Assembly (NCBI RefSeq): GCF_009184865.1
Contig: NZ_CP045096.1
Span: 1,302,001 to 1,366,000, forward strand
Origin: Streptomyces phaeolivaceus
GTDB lineage: Bacteria; Actinomycetota; Actinomycetes; Streptomycetales; Streptomycetaceae
Reading direction: 5' to 3'
Length of the DNA stretch: 64,000 nt
Part shown: in pieces, positions 26,364 through 63,996 of the stretch
Position numbering within the stretch: position 1 is the stretch's first letter
Layout of the letters: each line of letters starts with the position of its first letter
Notes under the pieces: model-generated
What the model was told of the DNA's origin: nothing
Databases searched by the model: none
What the model saw: only the letters and a program-made list of their open reading frames with translations
Position numbers and translations under genes: made by a program

Positions 26364-26430
26364 ACTATGAAACACTCAACCGCACCACCCAGTGGCCCTG
26401 GGCGGGGTTGTTCGTGGTTTCAGAACCAAC

Positions 26431-26446: not shown

Positions 26447-26451
26447 ACTGA

Positions 26452-31400
<4,949 letters not shown>

Positions 31401-31817: not shown

Positions 31818-31829
31818 ATTACTTAGCGG

Positions 31830-31845
31830 GGTGGTCTAGACCTCT
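31830..31845. promoter_or_regulatory. DasR-type operator (dre)
   Basis: GGTGGTCTAGACCTCT matches the dre consensus AGTGGTCTAGACCACT at 14 of 16 positions. DasR, a GntR regulator sensing glucosamine-6-phosphate, controls PTS genes including crr-ptsI in Streptomyces. The site is 115 bases before crr and 13 bases upstream of the rRNA -35 box. Confidence 0.8.
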
Positions 31846-31960
31846 AATGCGGAGCTATCGTGCGGAACGGGTACTTCAACCGACCTACCCTGCTGATCAG
31901 CGCGCCGTCCGGGACGAGCACTGACGGTGTCCCTGTAGATCTCCACCTGGGAGGCTTCCC

Positions 31961-32410
31961 ATGACCACCGTGACGTCCCCGCTTGCCGGACGTGCCATCG
32001 GACTGGCCGCCGTACCGGACCCCGTCTTCTCGGGAGCGATGGTCGGCCCCGGCACCGCGATCGACCCCGTACGTGAGGCGGGCGAGGCTGTGGCCCCCAT
32101 CGACGGAGTCATCATCTCCCTGCACCCGCACGCGTTCGTCGTGGTCGACTCCGAGGGACACGGGGTGCTGACTCACCTCGGTATCGACACCGTGCAACTG
32201 AACGGTGAGGGCTTCGAACTGCTCGTCAACAAGGGAGACACCGTGCAGCGGGGGCAGGCCGTGGTTCGCTGGGACCCCGCCGCCGTCGAGGCCTCGGGCA
32301 AGTCCCCGGTCTGCCCCGTCGTGGCACTGGAGGCCACGGCCGATGCCCTCTCCGCACTTCGCGAGGACGGCGAAGTGAAGGCCGGCGAGACGCTCTTCGG
32401 CTGGCAGTGA
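31961..32410 (+). CDS. crr: PTS IIA component (glucose/N-acetylglucosamine type, IIA-Crr)
   Basis: The 149-residue cytoplasmic protein passes phosphate from HPr to a IIB domain. The phosphorylated histidine is in GVLTHLGIDTVQLNGEGF and the partner histidine in LHPHAFVVVDSEGHG. It has the usual IIA-Glc beta-sandwich pattern (GRAIGLAAVPDPVFSGAMVG; GTAIDP; GEAVAPIDG). The start is the ATG at 31961, with GGGAGG 7 bases upstream. ptsI follows after 78 bases in the same direction. A dre site upstream suggests DasR repression relieved by amino sugars. Confidence 0.96.
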   Translation: MTTVTSPLAGRAIGLAAVPDPVFSGAMVGPGTAIDPVREAGEAVAPIDGVIISLHPHAFVVVDSEGHGVLTHLGIDTVQLNGEGFELLVNKGDTVQRGQAVVRWDPAAVEASGKSPVCPVVALEATADALSALREDGEVKAGETLFGWQ

Positions 32411-45204: not shown

Positions 45205-45810
45205 TCAGGTGGCGGCGGGCTGGCGGTTGTCGGTCGCCTGGGCCATCGCGTGCCGGACGACGGAGACCAGGACGTCCTTGACCGAGTCCCGGCGGCGGGC
45301 GTCGCACAGCACGATCGGCACCTCGGGGTCGAGGTCGAGGGCCTGCCGTACGGTCTCGGCCGGGTAGCGGGCGGCGTCGTCGAAGCAGTTGACGCCGATC
45401 ACGAAGGGTATGGAGCGCCGCTCGAAGTAGTCGACGGCGGCGAAGCAGTCCTCCAGCCGACGGGTGTCGACGAGCACCACCGCGCCGAGCGCGCCGGAGG
45501 CCAGCTCGTCCCAGAGGAACCAGAAGCGGTCCTGGCCGGGGGTGCCGAACAGGTACAGGACCAGGTCCTCGCGGAGCGTGATGCGCCCGAAGTCCATGGC
45601 GACGGTGGTGGTCGTCTTGTTCTCCACACCGCTGGTGTCGTCGACCGGGCGGCCGGCCTCGGTGAGCACCTCCTCGGTGCGCAGTGGCTTGATCTCGCTG
45701 ACCGCGCCGACGCAGGTCGTCTTGCCCACACCGAAACCACCGGCCACGAGGATCTTGAGCGTGACGGGCTCGACCGGAGGTGTGCCGCGCTCAGAGCGCC
45801 CGAGGATCAT
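45205..45810 (-). CDS. cvnD: Conservon small GTPase-like protein CvnD
   Basis: The 201-residue nucleotide-binding protein is the GTPase-like member of a Cvn signalling module. It has the P-loop GGFGVGKTTCVGAVSEIKPL, TVAMDFGRI, the DxxG-like LFGTPGQDRFWFLWDELASG and VGVN-type base recognition (IGVNCFD in place of NKxD). I prefer the ATG at 45810 (MILGRSERG), which has AGGAG upstream and matches the usual family N-terminus. It is the last gene of cvnABCD. Confidence 0.92.
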   Translation of the reverse strand: MILGRSERGTPPVEPVTLKILVAGGFGVGKTTCVGAVSEIKPLRTEEVLTEAGRPVDDTSGVENKTTTTVAMDFGRITLREDLVLYLFGTPGQDRFWFLWDELASGALGAVVLVDTRRLEDCFAAVDYFERRSIPFVIGVNCFDDAARYPAETVRQALDLDPEVPIVLCDARRRDSVKDVLVSVVRHAMAQATDNRQPAAT

Positions 45811-45867: not shown

Positions 45868-46263
45868 TCAGAGCGCTCTGAGGCCGTTGATGACATCGCG
45901 CAGGATGCTCTCGTCGACCAGCTCGGCGGGCGGGACGGGGCGGGTCACATGGACGAGTTCCTCGTCCACGAGGTCTCCGACGAGGACGCGGACGACTCCG
46001 ACGGGCAGGTCCAGGTCGGCGGCCAGTTCGGCCACCGACTGGGGGGTGTCACGGCAGAGTTCGACGATACGGACGTGCTCAGGGGAGAGGGAGTGGTCCT
46101 CCTCCGGGTCGTCGACGTGCGGTTCCGTGACGACCACGGCGATCAGGTCGAGGCGGTGCTGGATCGCGTGATTGGTCCGGCCGCGTGTCATCGCGTACGG
46201 ACGCACCACTGGTCCGGCCTCGTCGTCGAACCAGTGGCTTCTTCCCTGACCGTCTCGGCTCAT
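45868..46263 (-). CDS. cvnC: Conservon DUF742 protein CvnC
   Basis: The 131-residue protein is a winged-helix-like DUF742 member (VRPYAMTRGRTNHA; VAELAADLDLPVGVVRVLVG DLVDEELVHV). In conservons it interacts with CvnD and the others. It lies 9 bases after cvnB and 57 bases before cvnD. Confidence 0.92.
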   Translation of the reverse strand: MSRDGQGRSHWFDDEAGPVVRPYAMTRGRTNHAIQHRLDLIAVVVTEPHVDDPEEDHSLSPEHVRIVELCRDTPQSVAELAADLDLPVGVVRVLVGDLVDEELVHVTRPVPPAELVDESILRDVINGLRAL

Positions 46264-46272: not shown

Positions 46273-46710
46273 CTACCCGCCATGGGGGACATCGGCGCGT
46301 GGGGCGGAGCCCAGATGTACGCCGACCCGCTTGACCAGGAGGGTCATCTCGTAGGCGACCTGGCCGATGTCCGCCTCGGCGTCGGCGAGGACGGCGAGGC
46401 AGCTGCCGTCACCGGCGGCCGTGACGAAGAGGAAGGCGTCGTCGAGTTCGACGACGGTCTGCCGGACGCTGCCCGCCTCGAAGTGGCGGCCGACGCCCTT
46501 GGCGAGGCTGTGGAAGCCGGAGGAGACGGCGGCCAGGTGCTCGCTGTCCTCTCTGGTGAGGTCCTCGGAGACGCCCGTGGGCAGTCCGTCGCTGGAGAGC
46601 ACGAGCGCCTTGCGGATGCTGGCGACACGCTGCACCAGATCGTCCAGGAGCCAGTTCAGCTCCCCGGACGTGCCTGTCGCGGTGTGCCCTTCGGCCTTCG
46701 GTGCGGTCAT
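46273..46710 (-). CDS. cvnB: Conservon roadblock/LC7 protein CvnB
   Basis: The 145-residue protein has a roadblock/LC7 fold (ELNWLLDDLVQRVASIRKAL VLSSDGLPTG; FLFVTAAGDGSCLAVLADAE AD), acting as a GTPase co-regulator of CvnD. Its start overlaps the cvnA stop by four bases (ATGA), so translation is coupled. Confidence 0.93.
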   Translation of the reverse strand: MTAPKAEGHTATGTSGELNWLLDDLVQRVASIRKALVLSSDGLPTGVSEDLTREDSEHLAAVSSGFHSLAKGVGRHFEAGSVRQTVVELDDAFLFVTAAGDGSCLAVLADAEADIGQVAYEMTLLVKRVGVHLGSAPRADVPHGG

Positions 46711-49577
46711 CGACCGTCCCCCTTAGTCGTTCCTCGTGGTGCTGAGACGTCCTGGGCGTCGTCGCCCTCGGCGTTCTCCTCGCGGCCACGCTGCCAACCC
46801 CGTTGGAGCGAGGCCATACGGCTGCGTACCTCGTCGGCGTCCCGTTCGGTCGGCTCCGGACGCCGCTCGGGGCGGGACCGCTCGCGCTCGGCACGCCGGT
46901 CGGGGCCGTCCTTCAACTGCGGTGCCAGATTGGCCTGTCGGACGCGGCGGGGCAGTGGCCCCGGAGCTGATTCTGCCTGGTCGGTCGTCGTGCCCGCGCG
47001 CGGGGTGGGCTCCCCGGGGCCGTACGGCGAGGTCGTCGGGGCCGTGCCGCCCGCCGGAGTCGTACGGCGGCGCTGGGGCAGGGCGGGGCCGTCGTACCCG
47101 CCGGGGGGCAGGGCGCCGGCGCGGTGCGTGCCGGGAAGGGCCCCGGGTGCGGTGCGGTCGGTTCCGGGGCGGCTCTGCGGTTCGGTCCGGTCGCCGCGCA
47201 GCGCGGTGAGCGGGCGGGTGTCGGCGATCCCCTCGGGGCCCGGTGTACGGCTCTGCTCGGGTTCGTCCTCGGGCTGCCTCGGCCTGGACCCGGTGACCGA
47301 ACGGCCGTGCGAGCTGACGAGATGCGGGGTCCGGCGCTGCGGCAGCGGTACCGGGCCGAGCGTCGGGTCGGGGTCGGTGAGGGGGGTCCGGTGTCCTTCG
47401 CCGTCGCGCGTCGGCTGCTCGTCGGCGACGCCGGTGAGGGAGCGGCGGGGCCCGAACAGTCCGCCCCGTTCGGCGTCCTCCTGGCCGAGGGCGCCGGGGA
47501 AGCCGCCCAGGGGCTCCGGCGCGACCGGGGCCTCCAGCTCGACGGGGCCGTCCAGGATGGCGGCGGAGAGCCCCGGGAGCCTGACCGGGACCTCGGAGAG
47601 CGCGGCGTTGCGCTCGTCCTCCAGCTCGGCCTCCCGGGTGGGGTGGGCGCGGTCGAGGCGGAAGCCGATGCCGTTGGTGTCGGGGACGTCGTCGGTGAGG
47701 AGGGCGTCGGGGATGAACAGCACGGCCGTGGTGCCGCCGTACGGGGACGGCTGGAGGGAGACGCGGACCTTCTGCCGCTGGGCGAGGCGGCTGACCACGA
47801 AGAGCCCGAGCCGGTCGGTGTCGGAGAGTTCGAAGTCGGGGGTCTCGGCCAGCTTGAGGTTGGCGTCGAGGAGCGCCTCGGCGGACATCCCGAGGCCGCG
47901 GTCGTGGATCTCCAGGGTGAAGCCGTTGGCGACGCGCTCGCCGAGCACCTGCACGGCGGTGTGCGGCGGCGAGAACACCGTGGCGTTCTCCAGGAGTTCG
48001 GCCACGAGGTGGGTGAGGTCGGCGACCGCGGGGCCGGTCACGGCGACCCGGGGCAGCCGGCGGACCTCGATCCGCTCGTAGTCCTCGACCTCGGCGACGG
48101 CCGCGCGGACGACGTCCATGAGCTGGATGGGCTTGCGCCACTGGCGGGACGGGGCGGCGCCGGAGAGGATGACGAGGCCCTCGGCGTGCCGGCGCATACG
48201 GGTCGTCAGGTGGTCCAGGCGGAACAGGTCGGCGAGTTCGTCGGTGTCCTCGGTCCGGCGTTCCATGGTGTCGAGGAGGGTGAGCTGCTTGTGCAGCAGG
48301 ACCTGGCTGCGGCGGGCGAGGTTGACGAAGACCTCGGAGATGCCGCTGCGGAGTTCGGACTGCTTGACCGCGGCTTCGACTGCCGCCCGCTGGAGGGTGT
48401 TGAGGGCCTGGCTGACCTCGCCGATCTCGTTCCTGTCGTACTCCAGGCGTGGCACCTCGGTCTCCACGTCGATCTGTTCGCCCGCGGCGAGCCGGCGCAT
48501 CACGCTGGGCAGTCGCACCCCGGCGGTCTCGTGGGCCTCCTGGCGGAGCCGGCGCAGGTCGCGGATGAGGGCGCGGCCGATGCGCACGGACATGAAGAGC
48601 GAGACCAGCAGGGCGAAGAGGCCGAGGACACCGGCGACGGCGGCCCTCAGGATGACATTGGTGGCCAGTGGGCTGACGCGGTCCTGGAAGCGGTCGCCCG
48701 CCTCGATGCTGAGGTCGCGGAGGTCGGCGAGGACGGGCTCGACGGAGGTGTCCCACGCCTTCGCGGTGACCCCTGCGGGCTTGCCCGGGTCGGAGGCGAT
48801 GACGGCCTGCTCGACCGAGCGCAGCGGAGCGGAGCTCGCGCTCGTCCAGTACTCCTGGTAGCGGTCCCGTTCGGCGGAGGGCAGCTGCGGCAGGCTGATC
48901 TCATACAGCAGGGTGCGCTGCGCGACGAGGTCGGAGAAGTCGCGGATGTCGTCCTGGGTGATCCGGTCCGCGACGAGCACGGAACTGAGCAGGGCGTCCT
49001 CGCGAGAGAGGAGTTCGTGGGCGCGGCCGACGTTGATCAGGGCACGACCCTGCTTGTCCATCTCCACGCTGTCGAGCGCGGGGAGGTTGGAGAGCAGGGT
49101 GAAGCAGGGGTCGACGAGTTCGTTGTAGTGGCCGAGGGCCTGGGTGACCGTGACGGTGCCGCTCTCGACGCTCGTGCGCAGGGAGGGCAGGGTGTCGAGG
49201 GCGTCCAGGATGGCCGTGAGCCGCAGCGAGGTGGGCTCGCCCATCTCGTCCCGCAGGTCGGAGTCCGTGGCGTGCTCGCGGAACTCCTCGACCGCCGCGT
49301 CCGTGGCGGACCGGCTGCGGTCGAGTGCCGCGAGCGCCTCGTCGGACCGGGGGGCGGCGAGGTAGACGAGGGTCTGGCGGCGTTCCTGCTGGAGGACGCG
49401 GATGGTGTCCTCGGTGGGGTAGCCGACCTCCGCGACGATGTCAGCCACCCTGAAGAGATCGCTCGCCTCACGGCCCGTCAGCACGGTGGCGAACGTCCAG
49501 ACACCGGTCAGTGCCACCAAGGGCACGAGCAGCAGTGCCACGATCTTCCGGCGGATCGATTTCCCGCGAAAGCGCAT
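46707..49577 (-). CDS. cvnA: Conservon sensor histidine kinase-like protein CvnA
   Basis: The 956-residue membrane sensor begins with a helix (KIVALLLVPLVALTGVWTFA), then an extracytoplasmic nitrate-sensor-like (NIT) domain of about 280 residues. A second helix (GVLGLFALLVSLFMSVRIGR), HAMP and dimerisation segments follow (FRLDHLTTRMRRHAEGLVIL). The ATPase fold has the N box ELLENATVFSPP, DRGLGMS and PSPYGGTTAVLF. About 300 residues of proline/arginine-rich disordered tail follow. The signal is unknown. In the conservon it heads a G-protein-like system. The ATG at 49577 has GGGGGAGG upstream. It is the first gene of cvnABCD. Confidence 0.93.
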   Translation of the reverse strand: MRFRGKSIRRKIVALLLVPLVALTGVWTFATVLTGREASDLFRVADIVAEVGYPTEDTIRVLQQERRQTLVYLAAPRSDEALAALDRSRSATDAAVEEFREHATDSDLRDEMGEPTSLRLTAILDALDTLPSLRTSVESGTVTVTQALGHYNELVDPCFTLLSNLPALDSVEMDKQGRALINVGRAHELLSREDALLSSVLVADRITQDDIRDFSDLVAQRTLLYEISLPQLPSAERDRYQEYWTSASSAPLRSVEQAVIASDPGKPAGVTAKAWDTSVEPVLADLRDLSIEAGDRFQDRVSPLATNVILRAAVAGVLGLFALLVSLFMSVRIGRALIRDLRRLRQEAHETAGVRLPSVMRRLAAGEQIDVETEVPRLEYDRNEIGEVSQALNTLQRAAVEAAVKQSELRSGISEVFVNLARRSQVLLHKQLTLLDTMERRTEDTDELADLFRLDHLTTRMRRHAEGLVILSGAAPSRQWRKPIQLMDVVRAAVAEVEDYERIEVRRLPRVAVTGPAVADLTHLVAELLENATVFSPPHTAVQVLGERVANGFTLEIHDRGLGMSAEALLDANLKLAETPDFELSDTDRLGLFVVSRLAQRQKVRVSLQPSPYGGTTAVLFIPDALLTDDVPDTNGIGFRLDRAHPTREAELEDERNAALSEVPVRLPGLSAAILDGPVELEAPVAPEPLGGFPGALGQEDAERGGLFGPRRSLTGVADEQPTRDGEGHRTPLTDPDPTLGPVPLPQRRTPHLVSSHGRSVTGSRPRQPEDEPEQSRTPGPEGIADTRPLTALRGDRTEPQSRPGTDRTAPGALPGTHRAGALPPGGYDGPALPQRRRTTPAGGTAPTTSPYGPGEPTPRAGTTTDQAESAPGPLPRRVRQANLAPQLKDGPDRRAERERSRPERRPEPTERDADEVRSRMASLQRGWQRGREENAEGDDAQDVSAPRGTTKGDGR

Positions 49578-49996
49578 GGCCTCCCCCAGCTTGACCCCCG
49601 CCAGGCCCGGGGGCACACATGTGCGTCAACAAACGGCGTGAGCCTACTACCGACTCACACGTATCTCGAAGAGGAGGAGGGGGGCACTCCGGACCTGAGG
49701 CGAACCGGACATGGGGAGTTGTTCGCCCTTTGGGGTGGATTGCCTGGCCCTGTCAGGCACTTGAACCCGTGGCATCTCGTCGGAGAAGTCGACCAGTTGG
49801 CCGGATTTTTGCGTTCCGCGGGAATCTTCGACGCTCGTCGATCGTCTTTCTGTACGGGAATTGGGGGCGGAATCGGCCACAGGTCCCGCAAGCCGCTTCC
49901 AGGCGGCGTGAACCGGAGGAAGTCGGGCACCAGTGGGGGGCCGGGTCTCGGGACCCGGTGACTGTTGGTCCACCGGCGGTGGGGAGTGACAAGTTG
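49578..49996. other. Divergent promoter region of cvnA and a membrane protein gene
   Basis: The 419-base gap has lower GC than its neighbours and no convincing gene. A TAGGCT box (minus strand, near 49639) could be the cvn -10. GGGGAG precedes the rightward start. Confidence 0.4.
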
Positions 49997-52377: not shown

Positions 52378-52389
52378 CCCTCTTGTGAC

Positions 52390-52426
52390 CCAGGACACAG
52401 GAGGCGTAGTTCTGTCTCCGTCCTGG
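52390..52426 (+). promoter_or_regulatory. Hairpin between the ALDH and permease genes
   Basis: CCAGGAC (with GGAG) pairs with (CTCC) GTCCTGG, with an ACA bulge. It lies in the 119-base gap inside the operon and could lower or stabilise downstream mRNA. Confidence 0.55.
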
Positions 52427-52496
52427 CTCACGCACCGTTTCCCGGCACCCGCAGGAGCCGCTCCCCTCCTCCCCAAGGCCCACCAGGAGTCCGCTC

Positions 52497-54083
52497 ATGA
52501 CGACCATCGAGCAACCCACCGGACCCAAGAACAGCTCCGACGACACCGAACTCACCGAGTTCGGCTACAGGCCCGAACTCAAGCGCACCTTGGGCAACTT
52601 CCACACCTTCGCCGCCGGGATCAGCTACATCTCGATCCTGACCGGAACCTTCCAGCTGTTCTACTTCGGTTTCGCCAGCGGCGGCCCCGCCTACTGGTGG
52701 TCATGGCCGATGGTGTTCGTCGGCCAGTTCATGGTCGCGCTCTGTTTCGCCGAGCTGGCGGCCCGCTACCCGGTCGCGGGCTCGGTCTACAACTGGTCGA
52801 AGAAGATAGGCAACCCGCATCTGGGCTGGCTCGCCGGCTGGATGATGCTGATCGCCTCCATCGTGTCGATCGCGGCGGTGGCGCTGGCGTACCAGCTGAC
52901 GCTGCCCCAGATCTCCGACGTGTTCCAGATCGTCGGGGACGGCACCGGCAAGTACGACGTGGCGACCAACGCGGTCATCCTGGCCGCGGTGCTGATCCTG
53001 TTCACCACCGTGGTGAACGCGTTCGGCGTCAAGCTGATGGCCCGGATCAACACGGCGGGTGTGTTCATCGAGCTGATCGCCACCGTCGTCCTGATCGTGC
53101 TGTTCGCCGTCCACATCACCCGTGGCCCGCAGGTGGTCATGGACACCAACGGCACCGGCGACGCCTACGGCAACGGCTACCTGGGCGCGTTCCTCGTGGC
53201 CTCGCTGGCGTCCGCGTACGTCATGTACGGCTTCGACACGGCCGCCTCGCTCGGTGAGGAGTCGCTGGATCCGACGCGGAACGCGCCGCGCGCGATCATC
53301 CGGGCCATCGTCGCCTCCTTCGTCCTCGGCGGTCTGATCCTGCTGCTGGCGCTGATGAGCGTCTCCAGCCTGAAGGGCGAGCAGCTGTCCACGGACGGTT
53401 TGCAGTACGTCGTGCTCAATGTGCTCGGTCCGACGGCCGGCAAGGCGATGCTGTGGTGCGTCCTGATCGCGGTCACCGTCTGCGCCCTGGCCGTGCACAC
53501 GGCGGCGGTCCGGCTGGCGTTCGCGATGGCCCGCGACAACAACCTTCCCGCCTCCTCGAAGCTGGCCAAGTGCCACCCGAAGTTCCAGACGCCGGTGCTG
53601 CCGACCGTGATCATCGGGATCCTGGCCCTGTCGATCCTCGTGGTCAACATCCGTCAGCCGCAGATCTTCACCGTGGTGACCAGCATCGGCATCATCATGA
53701 TCTACCTGGCGTACCTGGGCGTCACCGTGCCGATGCTGGTGGCGCGGCTGCGCGGCAAGTGGCAGCCCGCCGGGGACGGCCGGTTCTCGCTGGGCCGCTG
53801 GGGCCTGCCCGTGAACATCCTCGCCGTGCTCTGGGGCGGCGGCATGACCCTCAACCTGATCTGGCCCCGGGCCGCGGTCTACAACGCGGCGGCCCCCTTC
53901 CACTGGTATCTGCAGTGGGGCGCGGTCCTCTTCGTCGGGATCATCGCCGGCGGCGGCTTCGCCTACTACTGGTTCATCCAGCGCCACAAGACGGGCGTGC
54001 TCGCCGAGCACCGCGTGGTCGTCGAGGACGGGACCGTACCGCCCGCGACGCCCGGACCCCTCACCACCTCGGCGGCCGACTGA
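52497..54083 (+). CDS. APC-family amino acid/amine permease
   Basis: The 528-residue protein has about twelve membrane helices of the APC superfamily. FHTFAAGISYISILTGTFQL marks helix 1, CFAELAARYPVAGSVYNWSK the second, and AYVMYGFDTAASLGEESLDP the middle. It is a likely secondary importer of an amine or amino acid. Its place between ALDH and choline dehydrogenase-type genes suggests choline or a related amine, but sequence alone cannot tell. CAGGAG precedes the ATG. Confidence 0.85.
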   Translation: MTTIEQPTGPKNSSDDTELTEFGYRPELKRTLGNFHTFAAGISYISILTGTFQLFYFGFASGGPAYWWSWPMVFVGQFMVALCFAELAARYPVAGSVYNWSKKIGNPHLGWLAGWMMLIASIVSIAAVALAYQLTLPQISDVFQIVGDGTGKYDVATNAVILAAVLILFTTVVNAFGVKLMARINTAGVFIELIATVVLIVLFAVHITRGPQVVMDTNGTGDAYGNGYLGAFLVASLASAYVMYGFDTAASLGEESLDPTRNAPRAIIRAIVASFVLGGLILLLALMSVSSLKGEQLSTDGLQYVVLNVLGPTAGKAMLWCVLIAVTVCALAVHTAAVRLAFAMARDNNLPASSKLAKCHPKFQTPVLPTVIIGILALSILVVNIRQPQIFTVVTSIGIIMIYLAYLGVTVPMLVARLRGKWQPAGDGRFSLGRWGLPVNILAVLWGGGMTLNLIWPRAAVYNAAAPFHWYLQWGAVLFVGIIAGGGFAYYWFIQRHKTGVLAEHRVVVEDGTVPPATPGPLTTSAAD

Positions 54084-54182
54084 CGGCCGGCTCGCGGGAA
54101 TCCCCCGTCAACACAGCACACCAGCGCAACCGCTCAGTGGCCCAATAGCTCGACGGCACAGCACACAGGAGGTCAACTCCCC

Positions 54183-55733
54183 ATGAAGGCAGACGAGTTC
54201 GACTATGTAGTGGTCGGCGGCGGAACCGCGGGAAACGTGGTCGCGGCCAGACTCTCCGAGGACCCGTCGGTCACGGTGTGCGTCCTGGAGGCGGGCCCCA
54301 GCGACGTCGGCGACGACGACGTGCTGAAGCTGGAACGCTGGATGGGGCTGCTGGAGTCCGGCTACGACTGGGACTACCCGGTCGAGCCGCAGGCCAGCGG
54401 CAACAGTTTCATGCGGCACGCACGGGCGAAGGTGCTCGGCGGCTGTTCGTCCCACAACTCCTGTATCGCCTTCTGGGCGCCGGCGGAGGATCTCGACGAC
54501 TGGGCGGCGGCGGGCTGCGAGGGCTGGTCCGCTGCCGACCTCTTCCCCCTCTACCGGCGCCTGGAGACCAACGACGCGCCCGGCGACCACCACGGCCGCA
54601 CCGGTCCGGTGAAGCTGCGCACCATCAAGAGCGAGGACCCGTGCGGCAACGCCCTGCTGGAGGCGTGCGTCCAGGCGGGCATCCCGACGACGCCCTTCAA
54701 CACCGGCACGACGGTGGTCCGGGGCGCCAACTGGTTCCAGATCAACTCCGACGAGAACAACATCCGGCAGTCCTCCTCGGTGGCGTACCTCCACCCGATC
54801 ATGGGCCGGCGGCCCAACCTGGAGGTACGCACCGGGGTCCGCGCCAAGAAGCTGGTGCTGGAGGGGCGGCGCTGTGTCGGCGCCGAGTATCTCGACCCCG
54901 ACCTCATCCACACCCGGACGGTGCGCGCCCGGCGTGAGGTCGTCGTCTCCTGCGGCGCCATCGACACCCCGAAGATCCTGATGCTCTCGGGCATCGGCCC
55001 CGCCGAGCAGCTGCGCGAGGTCGGCGTGGACGTGGTCGTGGACTCGGCCGGTGTCGGCGAGAACCTCCAGGACCACCCCGAGGGCGTGATCATGTGGGAG
55101 GCCGCCCAGCCGATGCCCACCGAGTCCAACCAGTGGTGGGAGGCGGGCATCTTCTACGACACCGAGCCGGGCCTCGACCGGCCGGACCTGATGTTCCACT
55201 ACGGGTCCGTCCCGTTCGACATGAACACGGCCCGGTACGGCTACCCCACCTCCGAGAACGCGTTCTGTCTGACGCCCAATGTGACACGGGCGAAGTCCCG
55301 GGGCACCGTGCGGCTGCGCACGCGCGACTACCGGGACAAGCCGAAGGTCGACCCGCGCTACTTCACGCACGAGCACGATGTGCGTGTGATGACGTACGGC
55401 CTGCGGCTCGCCCGGCAGATCGCGGCGCAGCCGGCGCTGAGCGGCTGGGCCGGGGCCGAGCTGGCTCCCGGGCCCGACGTGCAGACCGGTGAGGAGCTGC
55501 TCGACTACATCCAGAAGACCCACAACACCGTCTACCACCCGGCCTGCACGGTGAAGATGGGCGCCGACGACGATGCCTCGGCGCCGCTGGACGCGCGGCT
55601 GCGGGTGAAGGGGATCGAGGGGCTGCGGGTGGCCGACGGGTCGGTGATGCCGGAGTTGGTGACGGTGAATCCGTGCATCACGACGATGATGATCGGCGAG
55701 AAGTGCGCGGATCTCTTGAAAGCCGACGCCTAG
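54183..55733 (+). CDS. GMC-family oxidoreductase, probable choline dehydrogenase
   Basis: The 516-residue flavoprotein has the FAD-binding VVGGGTAGNVVAARLSED, the GMC signature near GGCSSHNSCIAFW, and SCGAIDTPKILMLSGIGP. The active-site end has HPACTVKMGADDDASAPLDA and VNPCITTMMIGEKCADLL, where the His and Asn match choline oxidase/dehydrogenase positions. Together with the ALDH and permease it would convert choline to glycine betaine, an osmoprotectant. AGGAGG is 9 bases before the ATG. A repeat element follows and overlaps the end of the convergent gene. Confidence 0.85.
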   Translation: MKADEFDYVVVGGGTAGNVVAARLSEDPSVTVCVLEAGPSDVGDDDVLKLERWMGLLESGYDWDYPVEPQASGNSFMRHARAKVLGGCSSHNSCIAFWAPAEDLDDWAAAGCEGWSAADLFPLYRRLETNDAPGDHHGRTGPVKLRTIKSEDPCGNALLEACVQAGIPTTPFNTGTTVVRGANWFQINSDENNIRQSSSVAYLHPIMGRRPNLEVRTGVRAKKLVLEGRRCVGAEYLDPDLIHTRTVRARREVVVSCGAIDTPKILMLSGIGPAEQLREVGVDVVVDSAGVGENLQDHPEGVIMWEAAQPMPTESNQWWEAGIFYDTEPGLDRPDLMFHYGSVPFDMNTARYGYPTSENAFCLTPNVTRAKSRGTVRLRTRDYRDKPKVDPRYFTHEHDVRVMTYGLRLARQIAAQPALSGWAGAELAPGPDVQTGEELLDYIQKTHNTVYHPACTVKMGADDDASAPLDARLRVKGIEGLRVADGSVMPELVTVNPCITTMMIGEKCADLLKADA

Positions 55734-55782: not shown

Positions 55783-55814
55783 CTCGCGCAGTTCCCCGCG
55801 CCCCTTACGGGGCG
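55783..55814. repeat. GC-rich intergenic palindromic repeat, copy 2
   Basis: It is identical over 32 bases to the reverse complement of 2631-2662. It lies between the convergent betaine operon and the SMC-like gene, and supplies the TAA stop of the SMC-like gene. Confidence 0.75.
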
Positions 55815-58800
55815 GCTGTGGTCGGCCTCTTGTACATCCTCGTCGCGGTGATCTCCGTGTGTGCCGTCTCCCCCGCCTGGGGCTGCTGGGGCAGTCCCGG
55901 GCGGAGGTGTTCCTCCACGCTGATGTATTTGAGGCCCGCCCGTAGGTCGGCGTCGTTGCGGAGACGGATCACGAGCGGGAACTCCGCCAGTGCGGTCGTG
56001 TCGAAGAGGCCCGTGGTGTAGAGGAGTTGGACGCCGAGGGCGTCCGAGACCGCACGCTGGAGTTCCAGGAGGTAGGTCGCGTTGGCGCGGCCGATGGGGT
56101 TGTCGAGGAACAGGGTGCCGGCGTGGCGGTGCCTGTCCCTTCCCCGGTCGTTGCTGCGGAGCGCGGCCATCGTGCAGTAGAGCGCGATGGCGGCGGTGAG
56201 CAGCTGGCCGCCGGAGAAGACGTCGCCCATCTGTCCGACGGGGACGCGCTCGGCCCTCAGCACGGCGTCCGGCTTGAGGATCTCCACGGCGACGCCCTTG
56301 GGCTGGAGCGCGGCGCCGACGCCTCTGAGCAGCAGGGACATACCGTCGCGGCGCATGTCGGAGTTCTTCCTCACCGCCGCGCGGGTCGCCTCGTCCACGA
56401 CCTCGCCGAGCCGCTCGGTGAGGGTGGCCTGGTCGGGCTCCTCGAAGCGGATCCGCAGGAACTCCTGGCCCGACCACTCCCCGAGGCCCTCCGGGAGCCG
56501 GGAGAGCCGCTGGGCGGAGCGCAGGGTCGCCAGGGCGGATTCCACGAGGCCCCGCAGCCGGTCGACGATCGAGTCCCGGTTGCGCTCCAGCTGCGCCAGC
56601 TCGTCCGTGAGGACCCGGAGCCGGGGCGCGAACGCGTCGGCCCACTTCTGGGCGTGCTCGGGCAGCGAGGCCGCGGGCAGCTCCCGGATCTGCTGCCGGG
56701 CGGGCGTGCGGACCTGCTCGTAGCGCGTGGAGTTGGCGTGGCGTACGAGGACGTCGCTGGCCTCGCGTACCGCGGCCTCGGCGGCGGAGAGATCGGCGGC
56801 GCAGCCGCGCAGGGAGCGGCGGGCCTCGGCGGCGGCCCTGCGCGCCTCTTCGAGATCGCCGGGGTAGGGCTCGGGCTCCGCCTGCTCGTCGTCGGTGGAG
56901 TGATCGCGCAGCAGGTCCCGGAGCAGGGCGGAGGTCTCGTCGAAGCCGCCGGCGGCGTCCTCGGCGGCGCGGTGGGACTCCAGCAGTTCGGCGTGGGCCT
57001 CGCGGGCCCGGGTCAGCGCCTCGGCGTGGGAGGCGAGTTCGGTGGTGGCCGTGCGCAGCAGGGCCTGGGCGTGCTCGGCGTCGCGCGGGAGCAGTTCCTC
57101 GGGCAGCTCGGTGTGCGTCCCACCGTCCTCGGGCGCGTGCCGCTCGGCCTCGCCGCGCAGCCGCCCGAGCTGCTCGCTCGCGGTGGACACCCGGGTCTCC
57201 AGAAGCTGGACGAGTTCCTCGGCGCGGGCCGCCGCCGCCTGCCGGGAGGGCCCGTCGGAGCCGTCGGGCGACTGCAGGAGCTGCTCGGCGCGGTTGCGGA
57301 CCTTGTTGGTCAGCCGGTCCAGGTCGGTGATCGCGGCGCTCTCGTCGCTCTCGGCCCGCGCCTGCTCGGCCCGCAGATCGGCGCCGACGCCGACCTTCTC
57401 GTACACCTGGGAGGCGGCGCGGTAGGCCTCGCGGAGGGCCGCGAGGGGCTGCCGGGGGGCGTCGGCGTCCGTCTCCGGTACGTCGTCGGGGGCGCCCGCG
57501 ATCTCCGCTCGCTCGGCGCGCAGCGCACGGGCCGTGCGGCGGGCGTCGTCGGCGCCGCGCTGGGTGGCACGGCGATCCTCGTCGGCGGCGCGGGCGCGCT
57601 CCAGGCAGGACTGGGCGCGGGCCTCCGACTCGGCCGCCTCGTCGGCGAGTTCGCGGAGCTTGACCTGCCAGCCGGCGCGCTCCCGCAGCCGGAAGGCGAG
57701 TCCGGCGAGGGCGTCGGCGGCACGGCGGGCCTTCTGCGCGGCCTCCTGCCGCTCGTCCCGCACCTGGGCCGCCTCGGCCGCCTCCTCCTCGGCCTCGGCC
57801 CGCACGGTCCGTGCCTCCGCCAGCTCCGCCTCGGACTCCTCGGCGAACGCGCGTGTCTCCCGCGCGGTGTCCGCCAGTTCGGTGAGTCGTCCCGCCGGGC
57901 ACCCCGTGCGCCATGAGGCGAGCCGGGCCGCCAGCTCGCGGTCCTTGCCGAGCCGGGCCGCCAGCTCCCGGATCTCCTCGTCCCGTTCGGTGGCCCGCGC
58001 GCGCAGCGCCTGCCGCTCCTCGTCGGCGGCGTGCTCGTCGTGCATGGCCGGGTTCGGCGGCACCAGGAACACTCCCCCGTCACCGGACTCGGCGGGCGGC
58101 GTCGGCGCCAGCAGGGCGGCGGCGGTACCGACGGCCACGGCGGAGCGCGGCAGCAGCGCCGCCTCGCTCAGCGCCTCGCGGGCACGGGCATGCGAGGCCG
58201 GGTCGGTGATGATCACCCCGTCGACCAGTTCGGGGCGGGCGGCCAGCACGCGCGCGTGGTCGGCGGGGTCGACGGCCTGGGCGAGATAGCGCCAGCCGGG
58301 GAGGGCCGGGATGCCGTGCTCGCCGAGGAACTCGACGGTCGCCAGGACGTCCGGGCCCGGCGGCAGCAGTCCGCCGTCGCCGAGGGCGCCCAGGATGCGG
58401 GAGTCGTCGGCCGCGGCGGTCCGCAGCTCGAAGAGGTGCCGCTCGGCGGACGCCACGTTGTCGTCGAGCAGCTCCCGCAGCTCGTCGGCGAAGCGGTCCA
58501 GCTCCTCCGGGGTGAGGGGGCCGTCGGCGACGGCACGCCCGGCCGCCGTACGGGAGCCCTCGGTCATCGTGGCACCGACTCCCACGGGCTTCCCGCCCCC
58601 CGCGCTACCCGTGCCCTCGGCGCTGCGGGGCACCGGCACCCCGGGCCGCGGCCTGCCGGGGGCACCGGGCAGGCCGAGCAGCTCCGCGAGCCGCTCCTCC
58701 CCCGCGAGGCCCTCCGCCGTACGCCGTTCCCCGTCGTGGGCGCGCTCGGCGGCGAGTGCGGCGTCCGCCGCGCGGGCGGCCGTCAGCTCCGCGCGGGACT

Positions 58801-60508
58801 CGGCGGAGGACGCCTCCCGGGCGTGTTCGGAGGCCCGGCGCGAGGCGTCGCGTGCGGTGTCCCAGGCGGCGACGGCGGTCTTCTCGGCGTCGCTGGCCGC
58901 GAGGGCGGCGCGGGCCGGGTCGGCGTCGGGCGCGCTGTCGTCGAGCCAGCCCGCCCGGACCGCCTCGGCGGTCTCCTGCTCGACCTCGCCGAGCCGCTGC
59001 TTGAGATGCCCGACCTCGCTGCGGGCGCGCTGCGCCTCGGTGGCGGCGGACGTCGCGTCCCGGTGGGCGGCCTCGCCGACCTCCTGCAGCGCCGCCGACT
59101 TCTCCTCGCCCTCGTTCGCCAGGTCCTCGGCGCTCTCCGCGGCGGCGGCCAGCGCGCGGACGAGGTCGACGGCGGCCTTGGCGCGGGCGGCGAGCGCGGG
59201 GGCGGCGTCCCGTTCGGCCTCCTGGATGGCGGCGGCGACGCGGGCGACCCGGTCGGCGGCGGCCCGGTGCCGGAGCACCGCCTCGGCGGCCTGCCAGGCG
59301 GAGTGCAGGGTGCGCGCGTCGGCCAGCTCCCGCTTCTGCGCGGCGGCCGACTTCTCGGCGGCGGCCAGCGCCAGCGAGGCGTGCCGGTAGGCGAGTTCGG
59401 CAGCGATCAGCGCGCTGCGGTCGCGGGCGGCCTCGGAGTGGGTGACCGCGTACGCGGCGGCGGTGACCCGCTGGGCGAGGTCGGTGCCCCGCAGCCGCTC
59501 CCGCGCGGCCCGCGCGGTGAGCCGCCGGGCCAGGGTGCGGGTGCGCCGCTCGGCGCCCGCGTGGATGTCCCGGGCCCGTGCCCTGCCCTCGGCGGCCTCG
59601 ACGATCCGGCCCAGCAGATCCACGGACCCGGCCGTGAAGTCCCGCTCGGCGATCAGCTCGGCCCGCCGCCCGAGCTTGTTGCCGAACCCGCCGACCAGGT
59701 CGGCCAGCCCGTCCGTGTCGCGGGTGTCGGTGACCGCCCGCAGCAGCAGATCGGTGAAGTCGGAGTCCTTCTTCACCGCGAAGAGCCCGGCGGCCTCACC
59801 CTCGTCCGCGTTCATCTCGCGCTGGTAGCGGAAGAGTTCGGGGTCGAGACCGAGGTCCGTCAGATGCTCGTTCCAGCGGTCGTGGATCTCCTCCCAGTGC
59901 ACTTCGAGGTGCGGATACGCCTTGCCCGCCTCGGTGAGGGCGTCCCGGAAGCCCTTCATGGTCCGCCGCCGGCCCTGTGCGCCGGACGCGCCCTCGACGG
60001 GCGGCCGTACGGCGGTGGCCTCGGCGACGGGCAGGTTGTCCAGGCTCAGCCCCGGACCGGGCCGGAAGGAGTACCAGGCCTCGGCGAACTTCCGCGGGTC
60101 GTTGGAGACCTGGCGCCCCCGCCACTCGCTCACCTTGCCCACGACGACGCACTCGCCGGTCAGCGTGTGCTGCCACTCCAGCGCGACATGCCCGCAGTCG
60201 TCGGCCAGCAGGAACTTCCGCAGCACACCGGAGCTGGCGCCGCCCAGGGTGTTCCGGTGGCCCGGCAGCATCACCGAGAAGATCAGCTTGAGCAGCACGG
60301 ACTTGCCGCCGCCGTTCTCCAGGAACAGCACACCCGCCGGGGCCGGCCGGCGCGGCGGCCCGGTCGGCTCCTCCTCGAAGAACTCCGCCTGCTGCGGCGC
60401 GGGGTCGGGCACGTACGCGCCCACACCCCTCAGGTCCAGCACGGTGTCGGCGTAGCGCGCACCGGCCGGCCCGATGGAGTAGAGGCGGACCCGGGACAGC
60501 TCGTACAT
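55805..60508 (-). CDS. SMC/MukB/JetC-like coiled-coil ATPase
   Basis: The 1567-residue protein has an SMC-type layout. The N-terminal head has Walker A FLENGGGKSVLLKLIFSVML (Lys 69). A long Ala/Glu/Arg-rich coiled coil spans about 280-650, with a globular hinge-like region about 665-825. A second coil spans about 825-1380. The C-terminal head has the signature FSGGQ (1431) and Walker B GTLFLDNPIGRAN (Asp 1469). The usual catalytic glutamate after the aspartate is Asn 1470. The length exceeds typical JetC and MukB. It is last in an operon with kleisin-like and MukE-like genes. Its role is probably DNA loop handling: chromosome organisation or defence. No JetD nuclease is adjacent. Confidence 0.82.
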   Translation of the reverse strand: MYELSRVRLYSIGPAGARYADTVLDLRGVGAYVPDPAPQQAEFFEEEPTGPPRRPAPAGVLFLENGGGKSVLLKLIFSVMLPGHRNTLGGASSGVLRKFLLADDCGHVALEWQHTLTGECVVVGKVSEWRGRQVSNDPRKFAEAWYSFRPGPGLSLDNLPVAEATAVRPPVEGASGAQGRRRTMKGFRDALTEAGKAYPHLEVHWEEIHDRWNEHLTDLGLDPELFRYQREMNADEGEAAGLFAVKKDSDFTDLLLRAVTDTRDTDGLADLVGGFGNKLGRRAELIAERDFTAGSVDLLGRIVEAAEGRARARDIHAGAERRTRTLARRLTARAARERLRGTDLAQRVTAAAYAVTHSEAARDRSALIAAELAYRHASLALAAAEKSAAAQKRELADARTLHSAWQAAEAVLRHRAAADRVARVAAAIQEAERDAAPALAARAKAAVDLVRALAAAAESAEDLANEGEEKSAALQEVGEAAHRDATSAATEAQRARSEVGHLKQRLGEVEQETAEAVRAGWLDDSAPDADPARAALAASDAEKTAVAAWDTARDASRRASEHAREASSAESRAELTAARAADAALAAERAHDGERRTAEGLAGEERLAELLGLPGAPGRPRPGVPVPRSAEGTGSAGGGKPVGVGATMTEGSRTAAGRAVADGPLTPEELDRFADELRELLDDNVASAERHLFELRTAAADDSRILGALGDGGLLPPGPDVLATVEFLGEHGIPALPGWRYLAQAVDPADHARVLAARPELVDGVIITDPASHARAREALSEAALLPRSAVAVGTAAALLAPTPPAESGDGGVFLVPPNPAMHDEHAADEERQALRARATERDEEIRELAARLGKDRELAARLASWRTGCPAGRLTELADTARETRAFAEESEAELAEARTVRAEAEEEAAEAAQVRDERQEAAQKARRAADALAGLAFRLRERAGWQVKLRELADEAAESEARAQSCLERARAADEDRRATQRGADDARRTARALRAERAEIAGAPDDVPETDADAPRQPLAALREAYRAASQVYEKVGVGADLRAEQARAESDESAAITDLDRLTNKVRNRAEQLLQSPDGSDGPSRQAAAARAEELVQLLETRVSTASEQLGRLRGEAERHAPEDGGTHTELPEELLPRDAEHAQALLRTATTELASHAEALTRAREAHAELLESHRAAEDAAGGFDETSALLRDLLRDHSTDDEQAEPEPYPGDLEEARRAAAEARRSLRGCAADLSAAEAAVREASDVLVRHANSTRYEQVRTPARQQIRELPAASLPEHAQKWADAFAPRLRVLTDELAQLERNRDSIVDRLRGLVESALATLRSAQRLSRLPEGLGEWSGQEFLRIRFEEPDQATLTERLGEVVDEATRAAVRKNSDMRRDGMSLLLRGVGAALQPKGVAVEILKPDAVLRAERVPVGQMGDVFSGGQLLTAAIALYCTMAALRSNDRGRDRHRHAGTLFLDNPIGRANATYLLELQRAVSDALGVQLLYTTGLFDTTALAEFPLVIRLRNDADLRAGLKYISVEEHLRPGLPQQPQAGETAHTEITATRMYKRPTTAAP

Positions 60509-60663
60509 GGCGGGGGACTTTCGCGGTCGTATCGGTGGTTCGTGCGGGGCGGTGACAGAGATCCAGGGGATCTACAGGAGATCCGCAGATGGCTGCGTGG
60601 GCGTTGCGCGTGATCGTGGGACGTTCGGGTGGCGGTCGTGGGGCGTACGGGTGGTCGTGGCGG

Positions 60664-61542
60664 TCAGGAGTGGAACGGCAGCCCGGCGTCGGCCACCAGC
60701 TCCAGGTCGTCGGTGTCCTCGGCGGGCAGCAGCGAGGCCGAGCCGTCGGTGACCGGCACGATGCCCAGCTCCAGCAGTTCGGCCATCGCGGCGCTGCCCG
60801 CCATGTCCCGCACCTGAAGCTGATAACGCGCGGTCGTGCGATACGTACCGCCGTTGTCGTCCCCGGTGCGCTGGAGGAATCCCGAGTCGGTCAGGAAGCC
60901 CACCGCCTTGCCGATGATGCCGGTGGTGGAACCGGCCAGCCGGCGCGCGTCCTTGGTGGCCCCGGTGGAGCTGCGTCTCGCCCAGGTCCGCCAGGACGAC
61001 TCCAGGCCCGGCGCGTCGGTCGCGGGGTCGGTGTTCTCCCCCTGCTCCTCGGCCCGCTCCTCCAGCCGTCGGCAGGCCTGCCGGACGAAGGCGTCGACGC
61101 CGTTGACCGACACACGCCCGATGTACCCGTCGTCCGCGAGGTCCTCGGGCCGGGGGAACGCCATCGCGGCCACCGCGAGATGCGCCAGGCCGTGCAGGAA
61201 CCGGTCCACCGAGTCCGCCGCCGTCCGCCGCGCGTAGTCCCCCATCCGCACCGCGAACACCGAGTCCTCGGCCGCCGTCACCGCCATCCCGGCCCGCGGC
61301 GACACCTCCAGCACGACCAGCCCGAGCCCGGCGGCCACGGCGTCGGCGAGCCTCGCGAACGCCGAATCCTCCCGATACCGCCGCAGCAGCTCCCCGTACT
61401 CCTGATCCCGGGCAGGCTGAAGCTTCGGCTGCAGCCCGAAGGCGACGAGCCGCGCGGCATCGGCGGCGTCGGCGGGGGTGAGGACAGCGGCAGCGGGAGC
61501 GGCGGCCGTCTCCGGCTCACTCCACTCGACGTTCTCACTCAC
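60664..61542 (-). CDS. MukE/JetB-like winged-helix subunit
   Basis: The 292-residue protein is mainly helical. It contains two winged-helix-like stretches (about 60-140, FARLADAVAAGLGLVVLEVS, and 210-250, IIGKAVGFLTDSGFLQRTGD). Its size and place between the kleisin-like and SMC-like genes are those of MukE/MksE/JetB. I infer the family from architecture and context rather than from a strong motif. The GTG start at 61542 has GAGGAG 8 bases upstream. A GC-rich repeat lies in the 148-base gap before it. Confidence 0.7.
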   Translation of the reverse strand: MSENVEWSEPETAAAPAAAVLTPADAADAARLVAFGLQPKLQPARDQEYGELLRRYREDSAFARLADAVAAGLGLVVLEVSPRAGMAVTAAEDSVFAVRMGDYARRTAADSVDRFLHGLAHLAVAAMAFPRPEDLADDGYIGRVSVNGVDAFVRQACRRLEERAEEQGENTDPATDAPGLESSWRTWARRSSTGATKDARRLAGSTTGIIGKAVGFLTDSGFLQRTGDDNGGTYRTTARYQLQVRDMAGSAAMAELLELGIVPVTDGSASLLPAEDTDDLELVADAGLPFHS

Positions 61543-61582
61543 GACAGGAACTCCTCGATCTCATGACCAGGGGGGCATGGCA

Positions 61583-61604
61583 GCGCCCCTTCCGGGGCGC
61601 GGGG
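61583..61604. repeat. GC-rich palindromic repeat, related copy 3
   Basis: GCGCCCCTTCCGGGGCGC followed by GGGG resembles the core of the repeats at 2631 and 55783. A second hairpin, GTGCGGCTTCGCCGC, follows. It lies inside the Muk-like operon. Confidence 0.55.
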
Positions 61605-61690
61605 CTCTGACATGTGCGGCTTCGCCGCGTGGGCGCGGCCGGCCACGGCGAACCCGCCCCCGAGCAACAACCGAAACCCCGACGGCGCCC

Positions 61691-63214
61691 TCACGCTGCC
61701 TCCCTCTCCGCAGCCATCCCCGCAGAGTCCAACAGAGCCATCCCCACGATCAGATCGGCCCCACCGAACTCGGGATCGTCCAGCTCCACCCCGTCGTCCA
61801 CGGCGAACAACAGCTTCTCCTCCCCCTGCCGATACGCCGTACCGACCGGCGGACTGGCCGCGTGCACAGCCAACAGGGCCACCAGATAAGGCAGTTCCGC
61901 ATCCTGAAGCCGCGCTTCCGCCAGCAACCCCGACAACCGCCGAGGCGCGTCCGCAGGCAGATCCAGCAGCACCTTCGCCGCCGCCAACTGCTCCTCGCTG
62001 AACCGGCTGTCGTCCGGTGTGGCGATCAGATCCGGCTCCGGCATCTCGGCCCCGAGATGCTCCCGCTCCACCGGCGGTGTGAACAGCAGCTCCACCAGGT
62101 CCCCGACTCGCACGGACCCGGGCGTACGCAGCCCCGTCCCGCGCGCGAAGAACGCGTCGGTCACCCGCCGGGCCTGCTCCACGGGGAGCGGCAGCAGGGG
62201 CGCGACCAGGTGCCCGTACAGGTCGATCCCCGAGGTCGTCATCGGCGTGGCGAAGGCCTGCCGGTCCTGTTCGGCGCGGAACAGGGGCCCGGCCTCCAGC
62301 AGTCTCGACTGCAACTGGGTGTGCCGGCGGATGCAGTCCTTGACGATGTCGACCAGCTCGGCGGCGCGCCGCTTCTGCTCGGGCTCCTCGGACTCGTCGC
62401 GCGCCTTGCGGATGTTGGTGAGGATCGCGTTCTCGTGGCGGTAGCGGTCGGCGACGTGGTCGAGTGCCTCGGCGATCATGTCGGGCACGGTCTGGAGCCA
62501 GTCGACCGCGCGGACGTTGCGCCGGGTCGCGTCCAGGGCCTTCCTGAGCGTCTCCGAGTACTGCACGGTCCGGTAGCGCGCCTGTTCCGCGGCGAGTTGG
62601 GCGTCGGCGAGCCGACCCCGGCTGATGAGGACCTCCAGCTTGACCTCGGCGGCGATCTGGGCGCTGGTGACATCGGTGTCGAGGGCGCCCACGAGGACGT
62701 TGACGGCCTCGTCGGTCGTGCGGAGGTAGACACCGCCCCCGTAGCCGGGGACCTCCTCGATCAGCTTGAAGTCGTAGTCGCGGCGGACATAGGTGCCGTC
62801 GGGGGCGAAGGTCCCGTAGACGGCCCGGAAGCCGCGGTCGACGCTGCCGACGTTGATCAGGTTCTCCAGGACCCAGCGGGCCACCCGCTCGTGCTCCTCG
62901 ACGGGCCGCCGCGGGGCCTGGGCGGCGATGCGCGGGATGAGCCGGGCGACGATCTGGTCGTGGTCGGCGCCCGTGTCGAAGTCCATGTTCAGGGTGACCA
63001 GGTCGATGGCGGCGAGGGCGACCTCGGCCATGCCGTACACCGAGTACTCACCGGCGAGGTTCGCCTTGCGCGCGTCCAGGTCGTGCAGCGGCGCGGTGCA
63101 GGCGAGCGCGCGCAGCCGCCGCGCCAGTCCCTCGTCGGCGGCCGGGCCCTGTGCGGGGCGCGGCCCCGCGCTGAACTGGGGCGGAACACTGTCCGTCGAT
63201 GCGGGTGAAGTCAC
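61691..63214 (-). CDS. MukF/JetA-like kleisin subunit
   Basis: The 507-residue protein has a helical N-terminal domain (GMAEVALAAIDLVTLNMDFD; ERVARWVLENLINVGSVDRG). A long helical middle follows (LADAQLAAEQARYRTVQYSE; ENAILTNIRKARDESEEPEQ), and an acidic C-terminal winged-helix region (DDGVELDDPEFGGADLIVGM). This is the domain order of MukF/MksF/JetA. The true start is the GTG at 63214 (TSPASTD); the frame upstream is spurious. TAGTCT 7 bases before it suggests a leaderless transcript. It is the first gene of the Muk-like operon. Confidence 0.72.
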   Translation of the reverse strand: MTSPASTDSVPPQFSAGPRPAQGPAADEGLARRLRALACTAPLHDLDARKANLAGEYSVYGMAEVALAAIDLVTLNMDFDTGADHDQIVARLIPRIAAQAPRRPVEEHERVARWVLENLINVGSVDRGFRAVYGTFAPDGTYVRRDYDFKLIEEVPGYGGGVYLRTTDEAVNVLVGALDTDVTSAQIAAEVKLEVLISRGRLADAQLAAEQARYRTVQYSETLRKALDATRRNVRAVDWLQTVPDMIAEALDHVADRYRHENAILTNIRKARDESEEPEQKRRAAELVDIVKDCIRRHTQLQSRLLEAGPLFRAEQDRQAFATPMTTSGIDLYGHLVAPLLPLPVEQARRVTDAFFARGTGLRTPGSVRVGDLVELLFTPPVEREHLGAEMPEPDLIATPDDSRFSEEQLAAAKVLLDLPADAPRRLSGLLAEARLQDAELPYLVALLAVHAASPPVGTAYRQGEEKLLFAVDDGVELDDPEFGGADLIVGMALLDSAGMAAEREAA

Positions 63215-63221
63215 GGTGCAC

Positions 63222-63251
63222 AGACTAGGTGCTGGGTCTGACAACGACCCA
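63222..63251 (-). promoter_or_regulatory. Promoter and operator region of the Muk-like operon
   Basis: On the minus strand TAGTCT (63222-63227) is a -10 candidate next to the GTG start. Directly upstream is the inverted repeat TGGGTC-N7-GACCCA (63233-63251), which contains GTCAGAC, like FadR-type GntR half-sites. The adjacent GntR protein is the likely binder. Confidence 0.5.
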
Positions 63252-63300
63252 AATCGTTCCGCCGGGCGGGCCGGTCCCGGCACGCCGCCGGCCCCGTGCC

Positions 63301-63996
63301 TCAGGTGACGTCGGAGACGCGGCGCCCGTACACCTCCACCAGGTTCTCCAGCGAGTCGTCCAGATACCCCGCCAGCATGCGCTCGGCCTCGTCCCGCTCC
63401 CCTCGTCGCAGGGTCTCCAGGATGAGGTGGTTTCGCGCCAGATACGGCTCGTACAACTTGCGTGGATTGTCCACTACGTGGAAGGCGAGCCGGAGTTCGG
63501 CGAAGACGCTGCGCATCAGCTCGTCGGTGCGGGCGCTGCCGGCGAGGGCGACCAGTTCGCGGTGGAAGTGGATGTTGGCGGTGGAGACGCCTTTCCAGTC
63601 GCCCTCGCCGGCCTCCCGCTGCCCTTCCGCGACGGCTCCGGCGAGCCCGTCGAGACCGTACGGCGGGGCCCCGAGCCCGCGGACGACGGCGCATTCGACG
63701 AGGCGGCGGGTGCGATAGATGTCCTCGACGTCCTCGACGGTCAGCACCCGTACGAAGACACCGCGATTGAGTTCGTGGACGAGGAGCCGTTCATGGGTGA
63801 GCAGGCGGAACGCCTCGCGGAGGGTGTTGCGGGAGATGCTCAGGGCGCCGCCGATGCTGTCCTCGGACAGTCGTGTCCCGGGCGGGAAGAAGCCCTCGGC
63901 GATCCGGCCGCGGAGGATGTCCGAAACCCGTTCGGCGGTGCTGGTGCGCCCGAGGAGCGCGCGGTCGTCGGCAAGTCCGGTCAGTTCGGCGGCCAT
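63301..63996 (-). CDS. GntR/FadR-type (FCD) transcriptional regulator
   Basis: The 231-residue protein has a GntR winged helix (about 20-85: AERVSDILRGRIAEGFFPPG, SRNTLREAFRLLTHERLLVH) and a C-terminal all-helical FCD domain with the ligand-binding histidines (NIHFHRELVALAGS; EPYLARNHLILETLRRGERD). FCD regulators usually sense small carboxylates. The ATG at 63996 is at the right edge of the window, so an earlier start cannot be ruled out. It is 86 bases upstream of the Muk-like operon on the same strand and may control it. Confidence 0.85.
   Translation of the reverse strand: MAAELTGLADDRALLGRTSTAERVSDILRGRIAEGFFPPGTRLSEDSIGGALSISRNTLREAFRLLTHERLLVHELNRGVFVRVLTVEDVEDIYRTRRLVECAVVRGLGAPPYGLDGLAGAVAEGQREAGEGDWKGVSTANIHFHRELVALAGSARTDELMRSVFAELRLAFHVVDNPRKLYEPYLARNHLILETLRRGERDEAERMLAGYLDDSLENLVEVYGRRVSDVT

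Follow-up and report, generated by a model that had tools for sequence, protein, structure and literature searches.

The window analyzed here, a stretch of 64,000 nucleotides from Streptomyces phaeolivaceus, carries three consecutive leftward genes that encode the putative subunits of an SMC-type complex. The first of these, jetA (61691..63214, minus strand), codes for a JetA/MukF-like kleisin of 507 amino acids, jetB (60664..61542, minus strand) for a JetB/MukE-like KITE protein of 292 amino acids, and jetC (55805..60508, minus strand) for a JetC/MukB-like SMC ATPase of 1567 amino acids; jetA and jetB both begin with GTG. The order kleisin-like, MukE-like and SMC-like, with just these protein lengths, had been proposed in an earlier note on this DNA, and the open reading frames, the PADLOC profile matches and the fold comparisons bear it out. 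The open frame of jetA extends to 63694, beyond the GTG at 63214, but we prefer the 507-residue start because most of the listed relatives are 507-514 amino acids long. Directly upstream of jetA lies a conserved promoter-like element of 36 bp (63220..63255, minus strand), recognized by a regular expression and by eye. Farther downstream on the same strand we found genes for a CvnA-like sensor kinase (46707..49616; a neighbor and not a subunit), a CvnB-like roadblock protein (46273..46710), a CvnC-like DUF742 protein (45868..46191) and a CvnD-like small GTPase (45205..45810).

Profile searches of all three proteins, as suggested in the earlier note, identified two of them. JetA, for which the long frame of 667 aa was used in the scan, matched the PADLOC profile JetA3 (PDLC00567; 611 bits, E = 4e-184), and JetC matched JetC3 (PDLC00588; 1413 bits, E = 0), but JetB returned no row in PADLOC, Pfam or NCBIfam. 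JetA gave no Pfam row and one unrelated sub-threshold row in NCBIfam, and Muk or Mks rows were absent for the operon proteins from Pfam and NCBIfam at E values up to 1. The assignment of JetB as a KITE protein comes from the fold of its AlphaFold model (mean pLDDT 71), for which the first seven VIA-align rows include JetABC, MukE, MukEF and MukBEF entries, while none of its Foldseek rows had an E value of 0.001 or better. For JetA the model is of poor quality and low confidence (pLDDT 50), and its first 11 Foldseek rows, with a best E of 1.2e-3, all come from MukF, MukEF or MukBEF entries. Searches with the JetB and JetC sequences against solved structures were uninformative. The operon hence provides the JetA kleisin, the JetB KITE protein and the SMC-type JetC ATPase of a Wadjet type III system, and it equally has the kleisin-KITE-SMC composition of a nuclease-free MukBEF or MksBEF operon, with weak fold support for JetA. 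An ScpA-type kleisin is not part of it, since JetA lacks a Pfam row and ScpA is encoded elsewhere in the genome.

Wadjet type III requires the Toprim nuclease JetD in the operon, and we did not find it there. The gene that follows jetC encodes a GMC oxidoreductase (54183-55733, plus strand; Pfam) and is a convergent neighbor, just as the earlier note had described when it reported JetD to be missing beside jetC. Its further suggestion of a nuclease encoded elsewhere gained no support as regards JetD: in the genome of S. phaeolivaceus, PF09983 had no match (with a positive control in Corynebacterium glutamicum), nor had PDLC00590, a weak negative as its control stayed silent, nor a nine-sequence JetD3 profile with which 20 of 100 first-look candidates were scored. 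Among 101 genomes of the genus, PF09983 had matches in 13 and the JetD3 profile from nine proteins in 9 (at most 20 candidates scored in each); by either profile, a JetD-like gene is present in 17 and was not detected in 84. When 46 stretches were scanned with a JetD profile, it was found at none of 36 core loci versus all ten accessory loci. The core loci comprise the one in our window, 27 from further Streptomyces genomes and 8 from a family (f18) that we take to be the Frankiaceae, given that its JetB relatives are named Frankia, Parafrankia and Pseudofrankia. JetD was encountered next to divergent accessory Wadjet-III copies alone. Close relatives with JetD in their operon would have spoken against the earlier note, and none of these 36 core loci offers such a case. 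Its reading of the operon as a stand-alone condensin or a nuclease-free Wadjet relative is thus supported by the operon, the genome and the core loci alike. Searched against solved structures, the JetD profile matched MksG with an E value no better than 0.17. We also considered an effector next to the core operon that might replace JetD and rejected it, as among the neighbor clusters compared, few of whose genes were annotated, none is placed alike at the Streptomyces and Frankia copies; cluster c17 is found near both, but at differing positions.

The ten divergent-copy loci comprise four taken for a nearby JetD_C (G091, G086, G032, G058) and six chosen without such knowledge. Nine of them (L072-L080) carry JetA, JetB and JetC, and the tenth (L081) is degraded. 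In all nine the JetD frame starts within the end of jetC, 4-17 nt before the stop codon in eight and up to 77 nt before it in L072, so that each of the nine intact JetD genes examined sits with its own JetABC. Their aligned products share invariant E-N and D-x-D positions, the ones expected of a Toprim domain. The accessory proteins are on average 39.2% (JetA), 39.5% (JetB) and 30.5% (JetC) identical to those of the Streptomyces core (eight core and nine accessory loci), and by our estimates of gene spacing the genes stand apart in the Streptomyces core and overlap, or nearly so, in the accessory copies. One genome (G090) contains two equally scoring accessory JetC matches (C1:11107-15633 and 9223501-9228027) at opposite chromosome ends, as in terminal inverted repeats.

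We then turned to the distribution of the operon. JetC3 was matched in 100 of 101 genomes of the genus, among them all 98 of good quality; within the family, 149 of 150 genomes had a match (144 of 145 of good quality; 17 of 17 genera). These counts cannot by themselves separate core from accessory copies, the 28 fully read Streptomyces loci having been picked as core-type hits. With 15 candidates scored per genome, JetB was matched in 147 of the 150 family genomes (142 of 145 of good quality); matches were weak or split in G398, G400, G451 and G458, and JetB was not found in G495 and G498, which possess JetA and JetC, or in G452, where neither JetC nor JetB was matched. JetA had matches in all 65 Streptomyces genomes of a draw from the order and in 3 of 15 sister-family genomes, one of them marginal. 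A draw from the class with two candidates scored per genome gave matches in 45 of 296 genomes, namely 28 from the same family, 16 from family f18 and a marginal one, and JetA3 was matched in 19 of 35 Frankiaceae genomes. Relatives of JetA were rare on plasmids (5 of 72,556 records, all below 60% identity); one is encoded by a Rhodococcus plasmid (NZ_CP070616.1:68393-69799) and is 51% identical.

With JetC matched in 149 of 150 family genomes, the operon lacks the sporadic, defense-like distribution that PMC10586767 ascribes to Wadjet, and it behaves like a core gene set in the Streptomycetaceae. Wide presence alone is no proof of a housekeeping role, since Wadjet is reported from 42% of actinobacterial genomes and tends towards the chromosome ends in Streptomyces (PMC10482375); on its contig of 10.12 Mb, our locus is found at 1.36 Mb, a distance of 13% from one end. 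The weight of a housekeeping reading rests on near-universality, synteny and the absence of JetD taken together.

The sequences of the operon are well conserved. Mean identities among eight Streptomyces core loci are 88.0% for JetA, 82.6% for JetB and 82.8% for JetC, and JetA is 87-98% identical to its relatives among the matches listed, at least 120 in number. Median dN/dS values (NG86, 28 pairs) are 0.14, 0.20 and 0.23 for JetA, JetB and JetC; this level, well below 1, together with the family-wide conservation argues against chance open reading frames. In a concatenated tree of 24 rows, from which L095 was omitted for lack of JetA, the Streptomyces core (100/100) and the Frankia core (100/100) each form a group, and the split of both together from the JetD-bearing copies has values of 65/70, for which the program warned that branches are long and composition is uneven. 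A single branch as the origin of all nuclease-free copies is weakly supported; JetD may have been lost once, lost twice or been ancestrally absent.

The ATPase motifs of JetC are preserved. The alignment contains the Walker A motif LENGGGKS in all 16 core rows, the signature FSGGQ and the Walker B motif LDNP, and in 27 of the 28 core loci from Streptomyces all three are read in the same frame. At the remaining locus (L098), in a genome with a chromosome-size contig, jetC (5061-9913) is split over two frames, which may reflect either a sequencing slip or a recent loss. SMC ATPases usually carry a catalytic glutamate after the Walker B aspartate. In JetC this residue is asparagine at each of the 107 loci with an LD-x-P pattern, JetD-bearing copies included; the pattern, which itself demands the proline, was found at 107 of 117 loci, some of which may share a genome. 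Asparagine in place of the catalytic glutamate is common to the JetD-bearing copies, but it makes the hydrolysis cycle of JetC uncertain. We rejected a decayed ATPase, since neither Walker A nor the signature is damaged and JetD-bearing copies have the LDN form of Walker B as well.

Taken together, we consider it reasonably probable, on the basis of sequence data, that the operon encodes a nuclease-free SMC complex of the Wadjet type III lineage that has turned into a housekeeping genome organizer in the Streptomycetaceae and acts beside Smc-ScpAB. It shares with Wadjet type III the JetA3 and JetC3 profiles, the gene order and the JetB fold but differs from it in its spaced Streptomyces core genes and in its near-universal, syntenic presence in the family; because JetD was sought and not found, we do not class it as a Wadjet system. 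It resembles MukBEF in its kleisin-KITE-SMC order and in JetA and JetB models that are nearest to MukF and to MukE or JetB entries, respectively. MukBEF, however, apparently replaced Smc-ScpAB in its hosts, judging from PMC10586767, whereas ScpA was present in all 21 genomes searched, including that of S. phaeolivaceus (G000:C2:1833625, a locus separate from jetABC), so that the complex would add to Smc-ScpAB and not replace it. Smc-ScpAB is an SMC complex of the same cells with a known part in sporulation (PMC8410768 and PMC13121528). The nuclease-free MksBEF of Pseudomonas, described in PMC10586767, is a precedent for such a complex; compared with MksBEF of Pseudomonas aeruginosa, our proteins match neither Muk nor Mks families of Pfam and NCBIfam, even at an E value of 1, and belong to the type III Jet lineage by PADLOC.

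Most likely, the complex is a motor that operates in the manner of MksBEF or Wadjet but has no nuclease. JetC dimers would bind and hydrolyze ATP, JetA would bridge the JetC heads and probably pair two motors, and JetB would form the KITE part of the complex. Once loaded on DNA, JetABC would extrude loops as do Wadjet and MukBEF, and without JetD a finished extrusion on a circle should not lead to cleavage. We infer that linear chromosomes, in hyphae as well as in spores, could be substrates of such a motor. As it is kept in nearly all Streptomyces relatives examined, a second chromosome organizer is more likely than a defense system.

A defensive role could nevertheless be envisaged in which the complex recognizes circular or conjugating DNA by extrusion and then compacts it, silences it or passes it to an unrelated host nuclease. 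The Wadjet-III profile matches, the Wadjet-like fold of JetB and the reported frequency of Wadjet in Actinobacteria (again PMC10482375) would fit such a non-cleaving anti-plasmid system, which we regard as unlikely, considering a presence that is near-universal and syntenic, unlike that of the sporadic Wadjet (PMC10586767), and considering that none of the neighbor clusters compared, sparsely annotated as they are, has the placement expected of an effector in Streptomyces and Frankia alike. A Wadjet system served in trans by JetD from an accessory locus is very improbable: although 17 of the 101 genus genomes have some JetD-like gene, none was detected in S. phaeolivaceus or in 84 of the 101, against JetC in 100, and the nine intact JetD genes examined each accompany a JetABC of their own.

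The complex might also serve DNA repair or replication, like Smc5/6 or mycobacterial MksB, and have no part in global folding. PMC13121528 reports Mks of Mycobacterium smegmatis to cluster near replisomes, which would suit this idea, but we noted no repair gene among the few annotated conserved neighbors and hold it to be quite unlikely.

If the housekeeping reading is correct, a second SMC complex in nearly every genome of the family would be an unexamined player in chromosome folding, which has been studied in Streptomyces with Smc, ParB and HupS (PMC8410768). Together with MksBEF of Pseudomonas, it would then make two cases of an anti-plasmid motor that became a housekeeping complex, and the coexistence of JetD-bearing and JetD-free versions in one genus allows their direct comparison. 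We found no description of the complex in Streptomyces in the accessible text of the literature, which included PMC10123090, PMC4255298 and PMC10512200 and scarcely extended to subscription papers and preprints.

The surroundings of the operon offer a possible link to development. The consensus of the element upstream of jetA is near CGTTTSG-CGTTGTCAG-AGGACCTARTCTGTGCACC-GTG, and it stands immediately before the gene. With a regular expression composed after the sequences had been inspected, we found it in 26 of 28 Streptomyces loci, one match per locus; our locus and L083 have variants recognized by eye. In the S. phaeolivaceus genome the element occurs once when as many as 3 mismatches are allowed, against no match for the reversed pattern used as a control, and it was not visible by eye in seven Frankia loci. 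Since its -10-like hexamer TAGTCT (63222-63227) ends 7 nt before the GTG, the arrangement suggests a leaderless jetA transcript. A sigma-70 and terminator scan of 60400-63400 made no calls, the jetA element included.

Of the 28 Streptomyces loci, 25 have a CvnA-like gene downstream of jetC and on its strand (our own, 6 of 7 with L083 as the exception, and 18 of 20 with L108 and L110 as the exceptions), the match being partial in L111, L114 and L116. Behind this gene, locus L087 carries genes for a roadblock protein, a DUF742 protein and a GTPase, all by Pfam. The four genes of our window were identified by tblastn against their L087 homologues, whose Pfam domains are named alongside (66% for the kinase, Pfam NIT and HATPase_c; 81% for the roadblock protein, Robl_LC7; 81% for the DUF742 protein, DUF742; 80% for the GTPase, ATP_bind_1). 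Kinase, roadblock, DUF742 and GTPase genes make up a conservon (PMC8510531). It is a tentative and rather speculative idea that the Streptomycetaceae and, separately or by transfer, the Frankiaceae own a second, unrecognized condensin, a plasmid-defense motor stripped of its nuclease and fixed in the family, which its promoter and the conservon, a G-protein-like signaling operon, would tie to the way in which linear chromosomes, present in multiple copies, are controlled while hyphae grow and sporulate. In our window, a plus-strand cluster (50911-55733) separates jetC from the conservon, while the two lie near each other in most relatives; it comprises aldehyde dehydrogenase and transporter genes, assigned by reading, and the choline dehydrogenase gene, a GMC oxidoreductase by Pfam. 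Upstream of the Frankiaceae core jetA, a TerD-like gene pointing away from it was present at all seven loci that cover this side (L089-L094, L096; Pfam TerD for L089). Elsewhere in the window, positions 24001-32000 have a GC content of 0.58-0.61, lower than the 0.69-0.71 of both flanks, a pattern like that of an acquired island.
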